Source of the DNA: a virus
Direction: 5' to 3' (one strand)
DNA: 20,060 nt
Virus record (IMG/VR): IMGVR_UViG_3300031706_000069
Span: 1 to 20,060 of that record
A program made the translations under genes and the position numbers. This document shows positions 4,532 through 19,966 of the stretch, piece after piece (the stretch's first letter is position 1; each line of letters starts with the position of its first letter). Under the pieces are notes generated by a model, which saw nothing but the letters and a program-made list of their open reading frames with translations, did not search any database and was not told the DNA's origin.

Positions 4532-4552
4532 CCTCTATGGTGCAACCTAATC
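4532..4552 (-). promoter_or_regulatory. Phage RNA polymerase promoter before the virion module (copy A)
   Basis: The site contains TTAGGTTGCACCATAG in the direction of transcription, with the likely first transcribed base at 4535 (the G of ATAG). Over 18 positions, GATTAGGTTGCACCATAG agrees at 13 with SP6 (ATTTAGGTGACACTATAG) and at 13 with K11 (AATTAGGGCACACTATAG). The word GGTTGCACCAT occurs at three other gene boundaries in the same orientation. The upstream edge overlaps the stop codon of phoH. It should drive the gp6.7-like, portal, scaffold and capsid genes. Confidence 0.82.
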
Positions 4553-5269: not shown

Positions 5270-7258
5270 TTAACGGATTGGGCAGGCACCAGTGGCGCAT
5301 TCATCATCTGTCAACTCATCGAAAGAGTTGGCATTCTCGATATCTACTGGTGACAATTTTGAAACGTATTCATCGTACACTTCTCGAGACACGACATCTT
5401 GAGGCAGGTAGGCATAGCCTAAGTCTGCTGCAGTCTTTGTTGGGTCGTTACGATAAATAAATGACACACCTACATACAAATCCCAGTTGTTCATGATCCA
5501 TTCGATGATGGCTGGTACTTCGTCAGGTGAGTAGCTGATTGTTACTGAGCAATTATGATCGACGTAGTGTTTCATCATAAGACCGTAGCGGTCCAACTGT
5601 TGCACAGCAGTTTCGAGGTTCACGAACTTACCGTCCACCTCATCAAACTTCACATCGTCATAGGCTACCGGAAAGGTAATTAAGACGCTGTCAGGTTCGA
5701 AAGGTTTCTCGATGACTGTGTAGTTAGCTGCAGTCATGATGGGTACGATTGGATCGTGTTTTGAGAAGGTCACGTTATTGAAGAGGTACTTACCAAGTGG
5801 CTTGTGGACCCCCTCCGTAGTCGACATGATCTTTGAAAGGGTTCCACTTGGCTTGATAGTTGTGACAAGCTTCGCCCGTGGTAGCCCTAGTTCATCTGCA
5901 ATATCGTTGGCACCCTGACGGGCAGAGGCTGCAATATTTTTCAACATCGATGGTACGTTGTTGTATAGATAACCTTGGTGGTCCATCCACTTCACGATGC
6001 CTGTAGCGCCTACGCCGCATAGACGGAGGAACTCATTCAGCTCATGCCATGAACGCTGCAAGATACCATCATCCAAGTTCACGCAAGTCTGGCGATAGTT
6101 TGCTCGGGCTGCTAGGTACACAGCTTTCTTCAGGCCCTCGAAGTCATCTAGGTATTTACCCCAGTCCACTTCAACTAGGTTACAGAAACTCTTGTTTCCT
6201 AATAGAATTTCTGCGCATGGATTAACTCCCTTAAAGTGTGGAGCACGTTTCAAAGCAGCTTCAGCATTAATGAATGCAGGTTCTGAACCACCAGCTTCAA
6301 CCATGCGGTCAAAGATGTAGGATAATTCCCACTTGGTAGGCTTCTTAGAGAACATAACTGAGTTGTTAGATTGCTGGCGGTGTGCATTGTCATGCAACCA
6401 GAAGTCTTTCTTAGCAAAGATGAAATCATCAATCTCAGGGTCATCTACAGGCACCAGCGCAATCTCTGCGGAGCGGCGTGAGGATAATGTAGTACCCATG
6501 TGGTTTAGTAGATCGAGGATATCCATGCGTGTCAGCAGTTCACCGGAACGCTTGTTCATGATGTCGCAGATGCGGCTCAACGCAATATGGAGCGTGTCAT
6601 CACCAGATGAAATCCAACCATAACCTTTCAGGCGTGTACCTGCTGGGCGGATTTCACGGTAGTCTAGGATGAGCTGATCCACAGGGTCCTTGAGTGCCAT
6701 GATTTTACCCAAGGCCTTTGCCCAAGCTTTAGCACTATCGCCAATCGAGATGCGGTGGATGCGGTAGCCTTCTTCAGTGACTGTACTCTCGGTCACATTC
6801 TCTTCACGACCTTTATTGGTACGCTCTGAACGCCATACTTCAATCGCTGTCTTACGAGCGAAGCCATTCAACGTGCCTACTACAGGCTCGAAGCCTACGC
6901 CACAGCCTTGAAGTAACAACCAGAACGCATCAACTACATCGTGGACTGTCTCGATACGTCCGAAGCTACAGTTGAACTGTGAAGCCTCGTGCTTCTTAGC
7001 CACGTCTGTGCCACCGAGCCATAGTGTGCGGCCTGATGTTGTAGCCTTACGAGTGAGCATCAACTCGCGGAACTCTTCTAGCTCACCAACTTCTCCTTGG
7101 TTAAGCTTCTCACCTTTTGAGCGTTCCCATAGCCATTGCTGGTGGGTAATTACTCGGGCCACTGTCTCCGGCCATGTTTCAAATACAGTACCCTCATCAT
7201 TAAGAGGACGGTTATAGGTTCGGCGAGTTATCACCTGCGCCCGTACATCATCAGTCAT
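5270..7258 (-). CDS. nrdJ: Class II (adenosylcobalamin-dependent) ribonucleoside-triphosphate reductase
   Basis: The 662-residue product reduces ribonucleotides to deoxyribonucleotides. It matches the monomeric class II type of Lactobacillus leichmannii (739 aa). C97 (QFNCSF) and C359 (KSFCN) are the active-site redox pair. N346, C348 and E350 (NPCAE) are the radical-site residues. The TTIKPSGTLSKI loop (about 466-477) contacts substrate phosphate. The tail CATGAC gives C654 and C659, the pair that passes electrons in. All key residues are present. The start codon overlaps the MazG stop (ATGA), and a glutaredoxin is two genes upstream, a plausible reductant partner although thioredoxin is the usual one. 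Class II enzymes need B12, so host or environmental cobalamin must be available. Confidence 0.93.
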   Translation of the reverse strand: MTDDVRAQVITRRTYNRPLNDEGTVFETWPETVARVITHQQWLWERSKGEKLNQGEVGELEEFRELMLTRKATTSGRTLWLGGTDVAKKHEASQFNCSFGRIETVHDVVDAFWLLLQGCGVGFEPVVGTLNGFARKTAIEVWRSERTNKGREENVTESTVTEEGYRIHRISIGDSAKAWAKALGKIMALKDPVDQLILDYREIRPAGTRLKGYGWISSGDDTLHIALSRICDIMNKRSGELLTRMDILDLLNHMGTTLSSRRSAEIALVPVDDPEIDDFIFAKKDFWLHDNAHRQQSNNSVMFSKKPTKWELSYIFDRMVEAGGSEPAFINAEAALKRAPHFKGVNPCAEILLGNKSFCNLVEVDWGKYLDDFEGLKKAVYLAARANYRQTCVNLDDGILQRSWHELNEFLRLCGVGATGIVKWMDHQGYLYNNVPSMLKNIAASARQGANDIADELGLPRAKLVTTIKPSGTLSKIMSTTEGVHKPLGKYLFNNVTFSKHDPIVPIMTAANYTVIEKPFEPDSVLITFPVAYDDVKFDEVDGKFVNLETAVQQLDRYGLMMKHYVDHNCSVTISYSPDEVPAIIEWIMNNWDLYVGVSFIYRNDPTKTAADLGYAYLPQDVVSREVYDEYVSKLSPVDIENANSFDELTDDECATGACPIR

Positions 7259-8969: not shown

Positions 8970-9600
8970 CGGTGAGGGCCTCCCATGATTGTGGAAATAA
9001 TGAAGACATCTGTTCGCCTAGAAGATCGGCAAACTCTTGTGTCTCTCGTTGAGTGTCGGACTTGATGCGGAGGTTGTAGACCCGCGACCAGAACAGGAGA
9101 GAGCCTGTCCATACCCACTCGGTCATTGTGCTTTGGGGTAGGATTGCCCGAGCTTGTTCAGCACAGATGCCGAGGGCTATCATCTTGTTGTATGTAGCAA
9201 TCGCATCGATGCAGATGTCGTGGTATTCTTCGAGGAACTCTTCGCTACGTCGATGTGTGTCAGGCGATGAGCCTTGCTTCACATTCTCTGCAGCACCCCG
9301 AAAGAACTTAGGCTTCCAGTAAGCTGGTGGCGTCTTGATATATCGACGGCTCTCTTCGTTCCATGTACCACCCACTTGGTGTTTTGCCAGTTGTCGGCTT
9401 ACGAAGATTGGTGCGCTGCACCGGAAGGTAGCCTGTGGATGAGAGAAGGGATGGTAGTGCTGCTCTCTGGCTAGGAAGTTTATCAAGCCATTATTGCGGG
9501 CCTCACTGTAACCGTCAGCCTGTTTAGAAAATGATACGCGGGCACAGTCGGCCACTAGATCGTCTGAACCCATATGGGTCATGTAAGATACATCAGTCAT
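8962..9600 (-). CDS. thyX: Flavin-dependent thymidylate synthase
   Basis: The 212-residue protein makes dTMP from dUMP with FAD, NADPH and methylene-tetrahydrofolate. ThyX features: the ARVSFSK strand (20-26), HxPFxHPQ (50-56, flavin-contacting His), SRQLAKH (68-74), WNEESRRY (80-87) and EQARAILPQS (148-157). The normal RHRx7S signature is altered: the three residues read K73-H74-Q75, and eight residues rather than seven separate them from S84. Phage ThyX proteins often show such changes, so I still call it functional. The start has AAGGAC upstream. It lies 16 bases after the HNH gene and next to the exonuclease and RNR, forming a dNTP supply unit. Confidence 0.92.
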   Translation of the reverse strand: MTDVSYMTHMGSDDLVADCARVSFSKQADGYSEARNNGLINFLAREQHYHPFSHPQATFRCSAPIFVSRQLAKHQVGGTWNEESRRYIKTPPAYWKPKFFRGAAENVKQGSSPDTHRRSEEFLEEYHDICIDAIATYNKMIALGICAEQARAILPQSTMTEWVWTGSLLFWSRVYNLRIKSDTQRETQEFADLLGEQMSSLFPQSWEALTDG

Positions 9601-9616: not shown

Positions 9617-10015
9617 TTAAATTTTAATAAACTTAGGGATGTTGAAGGTGTGAACTTCACGGTGACAATTGGCACAGAGGAGGTGACATTTATCTGCTTC
9701 TGTTATTAGGTTGGCCCATGATGTCTGCATGTTACCTTGCGAGACGTTAAATTTTTTGACCAACCGATCGTGGTGATGGAAGTCAAATACATTTGGATGG
9801 TACTCTTCATCGCACCGTTCGCACCGCCCACCCTTATAGGCGACCAGTTCTCGTTTACGATGCTGTGTTAGTTCACGAGCTTTGATTGACTTTGGGTTCT
9901 TAGTGCGTGTTCGCCCAATTAGACCCGACCTTGTACTCGCCTGTGACTTCACATCGGAACTTGAAGTGTTCTCCGGCGAGTTGAAAAGATTTAACTGCTT
10001 CTTTTCCAACGTCAT
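9617..10015 (-). CDS. HNH endonuclease downstream of DNA polymerase
   Basis: The 132-residue protein has an HNH/zinc-finger nuclease core in its second half: C65-x2-C68, then FDFHHHD (77-83) carrying the catalytic His, and C114-AN-C117-HREVH (to 122). T7 also carries an HNH gene (5.3) directly after its DNA polymerase, and such free-standing nucleases are usually homing elements. The start at 10015 lies 116 bases inside the polymerase gene; it is supported by a strong AAAGGAG seven bases upstream, itself inside polymerase codons. Residues 1-40 are low-complexity, Ser/Thr/Asn-rich and Lys-rich, as expected for an out-of-frame extension. The core call is firm; the exact start is less so. Confidence 0.82.
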   Translation of the reverse strand: MTLEKKQLNLFNSPENTSSSDVKSQASTRSGLIGRTRTKNPKSIKARELTQHRKRELVAYKGGRCERCDEEYHPNVFDFHHHDRLVKKFNVSQGNMQTSWANLITEADKCHLLCANCHREVHTFNIPKFIKI

Positions 10016-13763: not shown

Positions 13764-13786
13764 GAGCTAATGGTGCAACCTTATTA
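13764..13786 (-). promoter_or_regulatory. Phage RNA polymerase promoter-like site after lysozyme (copy B, variant)
   Basis: The site reads AATAAGGTTGCACCATTAGCTC in the direction of transcription. The shared word GGTTGCACCAT is intact, but the following text is TTAGCTC instead of TAGCTC, a one-base insertion between core and start compared with copies A, C and D. The AGCTC at the initiation end matches copy C. It overlaps the lysozyme stop codon and precedes a terminator. It may be a weaker promoter or may start one base further on. Confidence 0.68.
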
Positions 13787-15396: not shown

Positions 15397-17889
15397 TTAG
15401 CTAAAGAAGAACTCGGAATGTAGGACCTGTGTAATATCGAGAGTTCCCTTGGCTGGCAGTGGGGGTAGGGTAGTTCCAAGTGAAGCTTCGCATTCATCTT
15501 TAAAAGACTGTAGTGGGTTGTTCTCGTGATACATCCATAAGAATGTTTCGCGGGTACATGCCCCCAGCATCTCGATGTCGGATGCGTGACAGCCGAAGCT
15601 ATCATGTATCATTGCGAAGTGAGTGACACCGTTGTCTGCTGCTAGGTTAACAGTCATACGCAGGTGGCAGCTATCGTTTGCATGGGTGTGGTTAGGAGAT
15701 ACACCATTGCCCTGACGACGACGATCCAGCTTGTTCTTGTTGGCCTCTTGAACCGTTAGGTAAACTAGCTTGTCGCCAAACTTAGTCTTCAATCTACGCT
15801 TGGTCATGTCAGGATAGGACTGCATCACAGGCAGACCGTCTAGAGTGGTCCACATGATAGGTAGGTTCTGCTTTGCAAGTTCTCTAGCGCAGTCTTGCAG
15901 CCAATCCATCGCGGTCTTAGCAGCGATGACAGTCTCGCTGATCGATGACCATACATGTTGAGCGAGATACACGGACGCCTCAAATTCACGCTCATGCAGA
16001 GGTGATACATATCCTGTATCCTCTTCACGCCGCTTCAGATCAGTTTCTGTCAGATACTCTTGGATGAAAGACCGTGCTGAGAACAACGTGGAGGAATAGA
16101 CCCGTGTCATCGTGCAGCGTTTGGCCGTTTTGCGTGTCATCCCGTACTTGAGCCAGCCTGCAGCTAACTCGGAGGTGACATGCTTCCCCAAGACCAGCTC
16201 ATCACTGTTCAGATCGAGCTTCACTTTCTCAATCGTCCTATCAATGACAGTTTGGTAGATGTCTGCAGGCCTATCAGATGGCATGAGGTTGACCTGTTTG
16301 CCACCTACCTCATCAAGCAGGGCTGCGCTAAGATGTTGCAGACCATTACATGCGCCATCTTTTGCAATCGGGATGTATGACACATGGTCATAGCCGTTGT
16401 TGTTGTAGCCAACCCATTCCTCACAGAATGCTAAGAACGACCAAGGATCATCAGCTTCTTTAGCCCACCATAGGTTATCCATCGGTGAGGTGCCTGCCTG
16501 CAGGATACGATCTTGGTTTTCTACTACCCAATCAACACGCTCTTGCATCGACGCTTTGTCATAGCCGTAGGTATTGGCTCCATGAATAGCTAGCTCACAC
16601 GCAGCCTCGTTGGTTCCCAATGGCTTGCCATCGGCAAACTTCAAGAGACCTTTAGCCAAGCTGTTGCCTTGTGGGGTTAGGTAGGAGCTGGCAGGATACA
16701 AACGCCCCCTGAAATCTGCGGTATGAGGGAAGTAGATGGCGTTGTAGACTGAGAACTGCTTGGCCATGACCTGAATGCGGGTCATCATCAAACGCTTTGA
16801 TTGCAGGCGCAGGTTCTCTTCATACACCTTAGTCGAACGCTGCTTCCATAGCTTGAAATCAGCAAGTTGTTTCTCGGTCAGGTCCTCTTTCTTTAGGCCC
16901 TCTGGGATTACTCGAGGTGGCAGCGGCTCATCCTCGGGAGACGTTAGGCCACCTACAGCAACACCATTCTCATCTAGCATCTCGACTACAACCATCACAA
17001 AGGTGTTTATCTGCCAAGGTGTCCGCTGGATGTGATTAATAGCCCTATAAACAGGGGCCATCTGTTCTGGCAGGCCCTTCAGCTCCTCGAGATAGTTTCT
17101 GTTTGAGGTTTTGATGAGCGTCAGCGTCGGTGTGTGGTGTGTGAGATAGCCGCCGCCGCGTGGTCCCGTCCAATCTTCGGGCGGAACTACCATCGGCAGA
17201 TAAACAGGTGATAGCATCTCCGCTACGTCCCTGTTCTTTGCTAGAAACTCATTTACCGCAGCCGTGGCCACAACTAATTTTTCTGTGCGGTTCTTGGCGT
17301 AGCTGCGAGTAATAATATCAGCGAAGCCTGTCTTGGTAGTGAAGATGTGTAGTAATTTCATACCAAGATGTATGCGGGCATCATCACCCCAGTTGGCCCA
17401 TTCTTCACAGTAGCGATTGTAAGCAGCCACAAGGTTCTGACGCTTACGCAGGCGGGTCGTATCAATCTCAGTCAGCAGCTTCTTAAACAACCAAGGATGC
17501 TGCTCTTCAAAAGAGGTGTAGCGCAGTTCATCCTCGAGCTGCTTGCCGATGTTATTGGCTACAGTTTGAAGCTTATTGCTCTTGCCTGTAATCTTATCGA
17601 TGACGACTTTGGCCGTGAAGAATGCAATCACATTCGGGTCAAGCAATCTCATAAATTTTACTGCGGTGCTTTTCTGACCAGCCTTACCGCTCTCAGCTTC
17701 GCGAATCGCTTGGGTGATTCCCTCCGCCACAGGCTCGATGGCCCGCTTCATCAGGGGAGAGCCGTAGTAGGTAGAACTTTCATTCCCTTTTTGCTGGCTC
17801 TCGGAAAGCATGGACTTGAAGCGTTGCTTCGTAAGTGTCCGTGCCTCTTTTTCTAATGCTTCTTGGGTAGCGTACAGATCGATTGTCAT
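15397..17889 (-). CDS. Single-subunit DNA-directed RNA polymerase, T7 gp1-like
   Basis: The 830-residue protein (T7: 883) transcribes the phage genome from its own promoters. D511 (KDGACNGLQHLSA) matches T7 D537; K590 and Y598 (KRCTMTRVYSS) match K631 and Y639 with the same 8-residue spacing; D763 (MIHDSFG) matches D812. DEVGGKQVNL (526-535) and the aromatic C-terminal foot (HSEFFFS, T7 ends FAFA) are also present. The residue after Y598 is Ser where T7 has Gly640. The specificity-loop region before GVSPNHTH (about 702-730) is shorter than in T7 and unlike it, which fits a different promoter. The start at 17889 has AAAGGAAC upstream. A phage promoter about 40 bases upstream suggests positive autoregulation. 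Confidence 0.97.
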   Translation of the reverse strand: MTIDLYATQEALEKEARTLTKQRFKSMLSESQQKGNESSTYYGSPLMKRAIEPVAEGITQAIREAESGKAGQKSTAVKFMRLLDPNVIAFFTAKVVIDKITGKSNKLQTVANNIGKQLEDELRYTSFEEQHPWLFKKLLTEIDTTRLRKRQNLVAAYNRYCEEWANWGDDARIHLGMKLLHIFTTKTGFADIITRSYAKNRTEKLVVATAAVNEFLAKNRDVAEMLSPVYLPMVVPPEDWTGPRGGGYLTHHTPTLTLIKTSNRNYLEELKGLPEQMAPVYRAINHIQRTPWQINTFVMVVVEMLDENGVAVGGLTSPEDEPLPPRVIPEGLKKEDLTEKQLADFKLWKQRSTKVYEENLRLQSKRLMMTRIQVMAKQFSVYNAIYFPHTADFRGRLYPASSYLTPQGNSLAKGLLKFADGKPLGTNEAACELAIHGANTYGYDKASMQERVDWVVENQDRILQAGTSPMDNLWWAKEADDPWSFLAFCEEWVGYNNNGYDHVSYIPIAKDGACNGLQHLSAALLDEVGGKQVNLMPSDRPADIYQTVIDRTIEKVKLDLNSDELVLGKHVTSELAAGWLKYGMTRKTAKRCTMTRVYSSTLFSARSFIQEYLTETDLKRREEDTGYVSPLHEREFEASVYLAQHVWSSISETVIAAKTAMDWLQDCARELAKQNLPIMWTTLDGLPVMQSYPDMTKRRLKTKFGDKLVYLTVQEANKNKLDRRRQGNGVSPNHTHANDSCHLRMTVNLAADNGVTHFAMIHDSFGCHASDIEMLGACTRETFLWMYHENNPLQSFKDECEASLGTTLPPLPAKGTLDITQVLHSEFFFS

Positions 17890-17928
17890 TCTGTGTGTTC
17901 CTTTAGGTATCTGAAGGGGGGCTTGAGA

Positions 17929-17949
17929 AAGCTATGGTGCAACCAAATC
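17929..17949 (-). promoter_or_regulatory. Phage RNA polymerase promoter before its own gene (copy D)
   Basis: The site contains TTTGGTTGCACCATAGCTT in the direction of transcription, with the likely start base at 17932, 43 bases before the polymerase start codon. The core GGTTGCACCATAGCT is shared with copy C; the position corresponding to the A before GG in copies A and C is T. It would let the polymerase raise its own expression once some is made. Confidence 0.8.
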
Positions 17950-17981
17950 CAAGCCCTTGATTTGATTGGATTACTCCAAGA

Positions 17982-18009
17982 TGGTGCATTGGTGCAGATG
18001 CTTGGTGCA
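17982..18009. repeat. Three TGGTGCA direct repeats
   Basis: TGGTGCA occurs at 17982-17988, 17990-17996 and 18003-18009, and two of these copies are followed by GATG. The same 7-mer is part of phage promoter copy D at 17935-17941 and of the inverted repeat at 18210-18227. The spacing between starts is 8 and 13 bases. Clustered short repeats beside an integrase gene could be arm-type integrase sites, operators for a repressor, or remnants of duplicated promoters. Confidence 0.7.
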
Positions 18010-18073
18010 GATGTACTTTTTTTCTTGCCATTAACGGCTAAAAAAAATAAGTGCGAAAGCCAACGTTTACAGG

Positions 18074-18107
18074 CCCTTACAAGGCATAAAAATAAGGCCT
18101 TTAAGGG
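18074..18107. other. Long imperfect hairpin in the control region
   Basis: CCCTTA-c-AAGGC and GCCTT-TAAGGG form an 11-bp stem with a single-base bulge around an 11-base A/T-rich loop. Neither side is followed by a T run, so it is not a standard terminator. It could be an RNA structure in the polymerase leader, an RNase III-type processing site or a recombination site. Confidence 0.5.
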
Positions 18108-18180
18108 GTTTAAACTGTTAAAGTAGGGATTGGGAGCAGTGCAGGTTACTGTTAATTGCTTGAAGATAGGAGCGTAGTCC

Positions 18181-18208
18181 ATTGTAATACCATGATAATT
18201 TATTTCAC
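18181..18208 (-). promoter_or_regulatory. Possible host sigma70 promoter for the RNA polymerase gene
   Basis: In the direction of transcription GTGAAA (18203-18208) and TACAAT (18181-18186) stand 16 bases apart. TACAAT matches five of six consensus -10 bases and GTGAAA four of six -35 bases. A phage of this type needs a host promoter upstream of its polymerase gene. The TGGTGCA inverted repeat begins two bases upstream of the -35 element, a good place for an operator. No experiment or second copy supports it. Confidence 0.4.
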
Positions 18209-18209
18209 A

Positions 18210-18227
18210 TGGTGCAAACCTGCACCA
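18210..18227. promoter_or_regulatory. Perfect 7-bp inverted repeat TGGTGCA-AACC-TGCACCA (candidate operator)
   Basis: Two perfect 7-base arms flank a 4-base spacer. On the minus strand the sequence reads TGGTGCAGGTTTGCACCA, of which GGTTTGCACCAT is the phage promoter word with one extra T. A further GTGCAGGTT lies at 18139-18147. The site adjoins a possible sigma70 promoter, so binding here could control polymerase expression. Confidence 0.6.
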
Positions 18228-18235
18228 CGAATACA

Positions 18236-18267
18236 CCCGAAACGTACCAAGTTGGTGGCGCTTCGGG
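18236..18267. repeat. Nested inverted repeat just after the integrase stop
   Basis: Outer arms CCCGAA and TTCGGG (6 bp) enclose inner arms ACCAA and TTGGT around a single G. The element begins eight bases past the integrase stop codon. There is no T run, so a terminator is doubtful. Its place beside int makes it a candidate core recombination site or a 3' message-stabilising structure. No tRNA 3' end is recognisable here. Confidence 0.45.
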
Positions 18268-18274
18268 ATGTCGT

Positions 18275-19315
18275 TTAGATAACTGTTGCCAAGGTGTCGA
18301 GCGCATCTGCAGCATCATCCATTTTGCTCGGAATGAAGTGTGCATATCGCTGCGTTTGCTCGATAGATTTATGACCGAGCCAATCCATTACCGTGCGGAT
18401 ATCAACACCAGCACCAAGTAGGCGGGTAGCGCAGGTATGCCGCAGGCAGTGGATTACAAACTGCTTGTCATCATCGAGACCGATGGCCTCCCGCATCTCC
18501 CACCAGACTCTGTAAAATTTCTTCTCAAGGATATCACCAAACACTAGGGCATCATGCTCATTTGTTTGACGCTCGAGGCTCTCTAGGACTGCTCTGACGC
18601 GGGCTGTCATTTTTACCGTGCGTGGGGTGTTCGCTTTGGTTTCCCACACCGTGATGCGTCCCGTTTTGAAGTCGAGATCGTTGAAGCGCAGGCGGAAACC
18701 TTCAGACTTTCGGAAGCCAGTATCAATGTAGAATTTGACCATGTTTCCGAACTCTTCGCGACCTGTGCGGTCATACCAGTCGAGCATCTGAGCTTCCTCG
18801 AGGTCCGATACAAACCTGACGCGCCCCTTTGTTAACTTGCGCCCCTGCATACGTATTGGCGGGATACGTTTCCGGCCCCGCTTGTGTGCGTGTAGCTGCA
18901 TCTGTTGCAGTAGGGTGCCTAGATAATTAACAGTGCTAGCAGAATAGTTCCTATCAACGGTTAAAAAATCGAAGAACTCAGATTGCGAGGCGACTGATAT
19001 TTCATCCAAGTTGGCGAGAGGGCCAAAGTAATTTAATAGCATACTGCCGTACCAGTTAAACTTCTTGGTGCTGGCAGTGCTGTGTGGTGACGATGCGACT
19101 TGGTTATCCACATAGTGTTCCCAAGCTGTCACGAGGTTCCAAGGCTTCTTTTGGATAGCTGCGATATCATACAGCCCAAGCTTGAGCTGTGCCATAGTTG
19201 CCTCAGCTTCCTCGAGGCTCTTGCAGGTGGCCGTGCGGCGCTTGCCAGCCACCATAACAGATACGCGGAACTTCCCGCTGCGTTCGGTAATACCCTTGGA
19301 CAATTTACTGGTCAT
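18275..19315 (-). CDS. int: Tyrosine integrase (site-specific recombinase)
   Basis: The 346-residue protein has the full tyrosine recombinase set: R202 (TGFRKSEG), K227 (TKANTPRTV), H289 and R292 (HCLRHTCATRLL), H315 (WLGHKS) and the nucleophile Y324 (QRYAH). An N-terminal AP2-like arm-binding domain (GKFRVSVMVAGKRRTATC, then a helix) covers about residues 14-50, followed by a SAM-like core-binding domain at about 60-150. The start at 19315 is chosen because AGGGAGAT lies ten bases upstream; it overlaps the MarR-like gene by 11 bases. A longer frame to 19390 would overlap that gene much more. It should insert the phage genome into the host chromosome, so the phage is probably temperate or descends from temperate ones. 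Confidence 0.94.
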   Translation of the reverse strand: MTSKLSKGITERSGKFRVSVMVAGKRRTATCKSLEEAEATMAQLKLGLYDIAAIQKKPWNLVTAWEHYVDNQVASSPHSTASTKKFNWYGSMLLNYFGPLANLDEISVASQSEFFDFLTVDRNYSASTVNYLGTLLQQMQLHAHKRGRKRIPPIRMQGRKLTKGRVRFVSDLEEAQMLDWYDRTGREEFGNMVKFYIDTGFRKSEGFRLRFNDLDFKTGRITVWETKANTPRTVKMTARVRAVLESLERQTNEHDALVFGDILEKKFYRVWWEMREAIGLDDDKQFVIHCLRHTCATRLLGAGVDIRTVMDWLGHKSIEQTQRYAHFIPSKMDDAADALDTLATVI

Positions 19316-19643
19316 CTTCCATAATCTCCCTAATTTTATTGGCCAAGGCGTGGCCTTTTGGTGTAAGTTCAACGATCCGCTGGCGTTCATCCTCCATATC
19401 GGTGGTTATTCGGAGCCATTTTAGGCCCTCTTCTCTGAGATATGATCGATCAGCCATTGTGCGCACCAACCTGTTGATGGTGGTCTGCGGCAACCCTAAT
19501 TCCTCGGGCATGTGGCGGGTCTCAATTATCTTATCAGATCGTGCTGCCAGATAGCAGAAAACCGCAATCATATTGGCCGTAATTTTGTAATGTTCATCGG
19601 TGAACACATCCATCACCGCCTGCAGCTTGATCATCGATTTCAT
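19305..19643 (-). CDS. MarR-like winged-helix transcription regulator
   Basis: The 112-residue protein has a MarR-type DNA-binding layout. There is a helix with ANMIAVFCYLAARS (23-36), a helix-turn-helix in MPEELGLPQTTINRLVRTMADRSYL (45-69), then a wing ending in the MarR signature D85-E-R87 through LTPKG (93-97), and a C-terminal helix. The start at 19643 has a near-perfect GGAGGA seven bases upstream; a further in-frame ATG at 19685 has nothing comparable. It overlaps the upstream 92-aa gene by 50 bases and the integrase by 11. Its position before int suggests a role in the lysogeny decision or in autoregulation, with the palindromes at 19917-19966 as possible targets. At 112 residues it is short for a MarR dimer. 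Confidence 0.82.
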   Translation of the reverse strand: MKSMIKLQAVMDVFTDEHYKITANMIAVFCYLAARSDKIIETRHMPEELGLPQTTINRLVRTMADRSYLREEGLKWLRITTDMEDERQRIVELTPKGHALANKIREIMEDDQ

Positions 19644-19897: not shown

Positions 19898-19927
19898 ATG
19901 TTAGTTTTAAACTGCATACGGTATCAA
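19898..19927 (-). promoter_or_regulatory. Possible host sigma70 promoter for the lysogeny module
   Basis: In the direction of transcription TTGATA (19922-19927) and TAACAT (19898-19903) are 18 bases apart. TTGATA matches five of six -35 bases and TAACAT four of six -10 bases. The -35 element lies inside the 18-bp palindrome at 19917-19934, the standard arrangement for a repressible promoter. A start near 19891 would leave about 20 bases before the ATG at 19872. Confidence 0.45.
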
Positions 19928-19934
19928 TACCGTA
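19917..19934. promoter_or_regulatory. 18-bp palindrome TACGGTAT-CA-ATACCGTA (candidate operator)
   Basis: Two perfect 8-base arms are separated by two bases, the usual size and symmetry of a dimeric repressor site. It overlaps the -35 element of the possible early promoter. The GATAC/GTATC core is shared with the inverted repeat at 19947-19966 and with GATACC at 20034-20039. The MarR-like protein or a repressor encoded outside the window could bind it. Confidence 0.65.
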
Positions 19935-19946
19935 AAAATACTATTC

Positions 19947-19966
19947 TGATACTTTGAGAAGTATCA
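19947..19966. promoter_or_regulatory. Second inverted repeat TGATACTT-TGAG-AAGTATCA (candidate operator)
   Basis: Two perfect 8-base arms flank a 4-base spacer, 12 bases from the first palindrome. The shared GATAC core suggests that the same regulator, or a relative, binds both. Binding at both sites would cover the region upstream of the early promoter. Confidence 0.6.

Follow-up and report, generated by a model that had tools for sequence, protein, structure and literature searches.

The window, by which we mean the whole analyzed stretch of 20060 bases from an IMG/VR virus contig, carries all its main genes on the minus strand. Gene identities were read from the window ORFs by position and by similarity to annotated relatives. 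On that strand a MarR-like protein, a tyrosine integrase, a 385-bp gap and a T7-like RNA polymerase (RNAP) are followed by SSB, endonuclease, amidase, primase/helicase, DNA polymerase, ThyX, exonuclease, RNR, PhoH, portal, scaffold and capsid genes. The RNAP shows 74% identity to the enzymes of CRP-227, CRP-361 and CRP-114 and 66-68% to those of CRP-125, CRP-171 and CRP-113, and the MarR-integrase-gap-RNAP order is common to these phages. The T7-like RNAP and gene order, together with a tyrosine integrase gene upstream of RNAP, are those of an Autographiviridae phage with an integrase; judging from its genes, the window represents the left portion of a roseophage of this family, a marine T7-like phage of the temperate type. 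An ORF with HNH-like motifs (RCERCDEEYHPNVFDFHHHD...CANCHREVH) at 9617-10015 overlaps the end of the DNA polymerase frame and is possibly a homing endonuclease. The features of the locus and the phage promoters are as follows.

19305-19643, minus strand: MarR-like winged-helix protein, 112 aa, overlapping the integrase start (PHROG_9665 transcriptional regulator, 3e-18)
18275-19315, minus strand: tyrosine integrase, 346 aa (Pfam PF00589, 8.5e-28; PHROG_1 integrase, 3e-49)
18232-18238, minus strand: imperfect integrase-side repeat GGGTGTA, 11 bp before the dyad, an 11-bp phase common to relatives
18210-18227, minus strand: dyad TGGTGCA-GGTT-TGCACCA, proposed integrase-side arm-type sites (conserved element TGGTGYA-N4-TRCACCA)
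18138-18153, minus strand: candidate attP crossover core AACAGTAACCTGCACT, with half-sites around the 7-bp overlap AACCTGC, conserved in relatives
18074-18107, minus strand: hairpin between the core and the RNAP-side repeats, terminator-like in several relatives, a clear T-run being absent here
17982-18009, minus strand: TGCACCA three times, spaced by 13 and 8 bp, proposed RNAP-side arm-type sites; spacing kept in most W-type relatives
17927-17949, minus strand: phage RNAP promoter copy D (GGTTGCACCATAGC), with GGTTGCACCAT common to it and three other copies
15397-17889, minus strand: T7-like phage RNA polymerase, 830 aa
15367-15379, minus strand: phage promoter GGTTGCACCATAG, after the RNAP gene
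13768-13780, minus strand: phage promoter GGTTGCACCATTA
4535-4547, minus strand: phage promoter GGTTGCACCATAG

The word TGGTGCA was found 10 times in the whole window against 3.6 +/- 1.8 expected, and six of the 10 copies lie in the 385-bp gap between the integrase and RNAP genes. One of these (17935-17941) is inside promoter copy D, three start at 17982, 17990 and 18003, within 28 bp, and both arms of a perfect 7-4-7 inverted repeat at 18210-18227, whose minus strand reads GGTTTGCACCAT, consist of the word. A recheck of the letters indicated that all coordinates and sequences given for TGGTGCA and the inverted repeat in the original prediction were correct. None of 2000 shuffles of the gap contained six copies, and none of 200 dinucleotide shuffles contained TGGTGCA three times in 28 bp. 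However, 78 of 200 shuffles contained some 7-mer or other three times within 28 bp, and because of this the 28-bp triplet alone is weak evidence. We regard the conservation of the dyad and the spaced clusters in relatives as the stronger evidence.

We compared about 20 distinct integrase-RNAP gaps from TRCACCA-bearing relatives. The density of TRCACCA/TGGTGYA was 6-22 per kb in the gap compared with 0.1-1.1 per kb elsewhere on the same contigs, and the dyad and the spaced clusters recurred in relatives with integrases just 56-87% identical. The usual layout after the integrase stop consisted of one to three TGGTGYA-like repeats at 11-bp steps, with the last one inverted, so that the last two repeats form the dyad TGGTGYA-N4-TRCACCA, which in the window is the perfect inverted repeat; beyond the dyad came a conserved AACAGNAACCTNCACT, a hairpin, a TRCACC cluster and then the phage promoter of RNAP. 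The dyad was found with its spacer in L008, L009, L033 and L035, was present as the variant GGGTGCA-N4-TRCACCA in L050, L055 and L057, and was degenerate in L002-4, L011, L027 and L030. On the RNAP side, the TRCACC spacing was 11-13 and then 8 bp in most W-type relatives, the exceptions being L050-60, in which the 8-bp step comes first, and L033/L035, which differ. The distance from the dyad to the RNAP-side cluster was 185, 195-196 or 207-208 bp, that is, it varied in steps of about one helical turn, and we therefore argue that one nucleoprotein complex spans both clusters. The core AACAGNAACCTNCACT was kept with small variations in the gaps of W-type relatives and of L059, the repeats of which differ. 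In BB8 (L069), a perfect inverted repeat of another sequence, TGTGGCACATCGTGTGCCACA, occupies the place of the window dyad directly after the integrase stop (~6981-7001).

The gap is probably the attP of the phage, and the TGGTGCA/TRCACCA repeats would be arm-type sites of its own tyrosine integrase. Short repeats flank the candidate core on both sides in helical phase, and the adjacent integrase gene has an N-terminal arm-binding domain in a structural model of moderate confidence. In this AlphaFold2 model, the pTM of which was low (0.50), the N-terminus forms a b-b-b-a module of the kind seen in arm-binding domains, and its Foldseek matches were XerA, Tn1549 Int and lambda Int. The N-terminal domain would bind the repeats on both sides of the crossover core (~18138-18153), and the repeat-bound integrase would build the integration complex by which the phage is inserted into the host chromosome. 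The RNAP-side cluster ends up ~40 bp upstream of the promoter for RNAP, and for this reason an attP loaded with integrase may also impede transcription of RNAP.

The same layout, built from other words, was found around tRNA sequence in distant T7-like phages. L045 and L048 carry a complete tRNA-Leu between the integrase and RNAP genes (9434-9518 and 9241-9325, respectively) with GTGACAA repeats on both sides, and the tRNA-Leu of YIMV22061 is flanked by TGGCACA/TGACACA. L047 has TGTGCCA four times at ~11-bp steps followed by a tRNA-Ser-like fragment, and ProddE has TGCAACC on either side of a tRNA-like fragment; these two fragments were recognized by eye, ARAGORN reporting complete genes only. 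The recurrence of this layout thus points to the anatomy of an attP with arm-type sites. The comparison shows the array, its spacing, its conservation and its independence of the promoters (below), along with the tRNA-flanking layout in relatives and the domain layout of the integrase; the binding protein, the exact core and integration itself are inferred. When a plasmid collection was searched with three gap sequences, no tRNA or Rhodobacterales match and no attB or integrated copy was found, while an integrase scan of genome contigs gave a single distant match, in an actinobacterial MAG. Rfam returned nothing convincing on the gap, and a 10-bit tmRNA match was rejected as chance-level.

CRP-227, CRP-361, CRP-114, CRP-125 and CRP-171 resemble the window in their TRCACCA repeats and in the kind of promoter as well as in gene order; the promoters of the CRP-227 type read GGTTGCACCTA, unlike those of the window. 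The integrases of the CRP-125/171 clade differ from that of the window. Their N-terminal domain was 52-55% identical to the window's while the core-binding domain was 24-27% identical, and their gaps keep the TTRCACC word but have a different core sequence, the AACAG core being absent. On this comparison, the CRP-125/171 integrase is a natural domain swap in which the N-terminal domain is kept with the word and the core-binding domain changes with the core. The integrases of L005-L007, L036 and L046 have a diverged or replaced core-binding domain, retain the N-terminal and catalytic domains, and accompany a changed attP core. The model of the MarR-like protein matched MarR/MepR, and among TRCACCA carriers its recognition helix was about as conserved as the integrase N-terminus. 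Since both are conserved in these carriers, covariation of MarR versus integrase cannot assign the sites. Two strong dyads, ACGGTATCAATACCGT (19918-19933) and TGATACTTTGAGAAGTATCA (19947-19966), lie ~290-320 bp upstream of the MarR gene; they are identical in L015, L009 has another dyad instead, and they are possibly operators of the MarR-integrase operon or of an upstream gene.

A study on T7-like cyanophages reports that these phages have their attP downstream of int and need it to integrate, and that S-TIP37 needs both int and this attP (PMC8776855). S-TIP37, P-SSP7 and HTVC022P are, like the window phage, T7-like phages with an integrase gene, and there integration occurs during lytic infection; the attP of S-TIP37 and P-SSP7 is downstream of int, as we propose here. 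The cores of the three phages match tRNA-Leu or tRNA-Cys, whereas the candidate core of the window is not recognizably tRNA, and the passages on these phages do not discuss arm-type arrays. LUZ100 and Rhizobium phage Pasto resemble the window in having a MarR-like gene beside int, upstream of RNAP, and LUZ100 also has a terminator and a phage promoter between int and RNAP, gap repeats and a left-end pair; the repeat words there (CGACACA; TGTGCCA) differ from the window's. For LUZ100, a MarR-like repressor was suggested, as a proposal only, to bind sites flanking the RNAP promoter (PMC10134795), and the text cites Boeckman et al. 2022 for the same MarR proposal (PMC10134795). The earlier remark that no described T7-like phage is known to work this way therefore needs qualifying. 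The published model assigns the sites to MarR, whereas our main reading assigns them to the integrase.

In relatives the word also occurs outside the gap. A direct TTGCACCA-like pair, 11-12 bp apart, was found at the left genome end of L002, L003, L009, L012, L015, L030 and L050/L053, and the corresponding junction region of CRP-114, CRP-125 and CRP-171 has this pair as well. In W-type phages TGGTGYAAAWT follows some hundred bases past the pair and precedes the -35 of an early sigma-70-like promoter by ~6-15 bp; the promoter was read by eye. A left-end pair in the phage's own word was present in RHEph21 (L070; 85/98, span 85-104), in L045 (3378) and in L048; the pair of LUZ100 (L023; 90/102, span 90-107) lies within the terminal repeat, and that of BB8 (103/115) is degenerate. 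Several W-type left-end modules contain a second core-like dyad, the middle of which differs from the candidate attP core. The positions in W-type relatives are given below.

Left-end pair: L002 79-96, L003 76-94, L009 1556, L012 3882, L015 6230, L030 3957, L050 6083
Core-like left-end dyad GGCAACAG-N8-ACTNTTACC: L015 6282-6310, L009 1608, L050 left end

The window stops before the left-end region, and L015, the MarR of which is 97% identical, has the left-end module. The arms of an attP do not explain the left-end pair or the early-promoter copy of the word. Since the word lies near early promoters of relatives, the integrase or its MarR-like neighbor may also regulate early transcription. 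The Apl protein of phage 186 is a precedent for a single protein that acts through such repeats both at att and at early promoters (PMC7498355). Relatives of the window show this Apl/Cox-type layout, in which, as for 186 Apl and P2 Cox, the same direct repeats stand one helical turn apart at att and early promoters. Apl uses rows of five and seven sites, whereas here the core has sites to either side and the early region has just a pair and a single site, and the candidate protein here has a MarR fold, unlike Apl and Cox.

The original prediction had one protein bind both the repeats and all phage promoters, so that recognition of the promoter core itself would silence the lytic programme by covering every promoter. 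All four window promoters do contain TTGCACCA, which matches the repeat word exactly (P = 0.002 relative to random 7-mers), a strong likeness confined to this phage; it is weak in CRP-227, L050 and LUZ100 (P ~0.036; 6/7 positions in LUZ100), and the repeat words of ARP-C, Rhizobium phages, L047 and L059 are not promoter-like (P 0.29-0.90). Promoters and repeats were also found to evolve apart. The promoters read ATTAGGTTGCACCATAGC in the window's lineage and GGTTGCACCTAAGC in CRP-227 types; L050-L060 have GGTTGCACTATAGC promoters while their repeats stay TRCACCA, and the L050 clade keeps TRCACCA repeats with GGTTGCACT promoters. Repeats are likewise uncoupled from promoters in ARP-C phages (TGTGACA repeats, ATTAATCACC promoters) and in RHEph01 (GTGACAC repeats, ATTACCCCTC promoters). 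The motif comparison in related genomes that had been suggested as a check went against the prediction, since the promoter after RNAP is still GGTTGCACC in L047 and L059, the gap repeats of which are different words (TGTGCCA and GTAGTAA, respectively). The full promoter motif (ATTAGGTTGCAC[CT]NTAG type) is absent from the repeats, which have TRCACCA alone in common with it, and promoter D is its sole full match in the window's gap. Moreover, promoters outside the gap have one TGCACC each and no phased array, and the repeats tolerate A where every listed promoter has G. The likeness of repeat and promoter is lineage-specific and not the basis of function, and we consider a protein that covers all promoters improbable. 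What stands of the lysogeny-side operators is that a lysogeny-module protein, the integrase or the MarR-like regulator, very probably binds the repeats and that in relatives the word occurs near early promoters; the reuse and masking of promoters is not supported. The letters at 18210-18227 were rightly described as the promoter word plus one T, but L008 and L009, the closest relatives, have TGGTGTAAGGTTGCACCA there, and the perfect repeat with GGTTTGCACC is better read as the window phage's variant of the conserved dyad than simply as a promoter plus T. This repeat was also rejected as a true promoter: L008/L009 have GGTTGCACC there, but in L033, L035 and L050-60 the dyad is retained and GGTTGCACC is absent. 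That the TGGTGCA copies are a chance cluster or functionless promoter copies is very improbable; a triplet of some 7-mer arises readily on shuffling, but six copies in the gap never did, and the conservation of dyad, spacing and distances across diverged integrases, with the high density in the gap, already contradicts it.

The MarR-like protein, encoded just before int, is the main rival candidate for binding the repeats. It would be an excisionase or architectural factor at attP and a regulator at the RNAP and early promoters, like Apl, a possibility that we find less likely than the integrase. The same word occurs at three W-type places (the gap, the left-end pair and upstream of the early -35), and left-end pairs with other words occur in RHEph21, LUZ100 and L045/48, all of which bear a MarR. 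Precedents are Apl, which at both att and early promoters uses direct repeats spaced by about one helical turn (PMC7498355), and the MarR control of RNAP proposed for LUZ100 (PMC10134795). On the other hand, ProddE and BB8 carry repeats after the integrase gene, BB8 with its degenerate left-end pair, and a profile built on the MarR proteins of this phage group gave no match in the stretches of these two genomes that were searched; the repeats of ProddE and BB8 could, however, belong to a different protein. An apparent absence of MarR from L045/L048 was rejected, since both have a MarR-like ORF upstream of their int. MarR proteins are dimers and normally bind palindromes, whereas most sites here are direct repeats, and a core with sites to either side is more in keeping with an integrase than with an excisionase.

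We also put forward a wider and rather unlikely model for temperate T7-like phages, in which a single word, determined by the integrase (or else by the MarR-like protein), marks three places: attP, the left end and the early host promoter. Integration and repression of the early and RNAP genes would then be the work of one protein, which in the window's lineage may also touch the phage promoters. For T7-like cyanophages, the study cited above found no repressor homologue and obtained no stable lysogens (PMC8776855), and stable lysogens of LUZ100 were not obtained either (PMC10134795). The comparison indicates that a promoter-like word in a single genome can mislead and that such a case becomes clearer with relatives in which an integrase domain has been exchanged. 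For the question of how integrase-carrying T7-like phages could be held silent, the array and its left-end and early copies give exact DNA targets on which to examine the integrase and the MarR-like protein. If the wider model is true, temperate T7-like phages would have an immunity system without a CI-type repressor.
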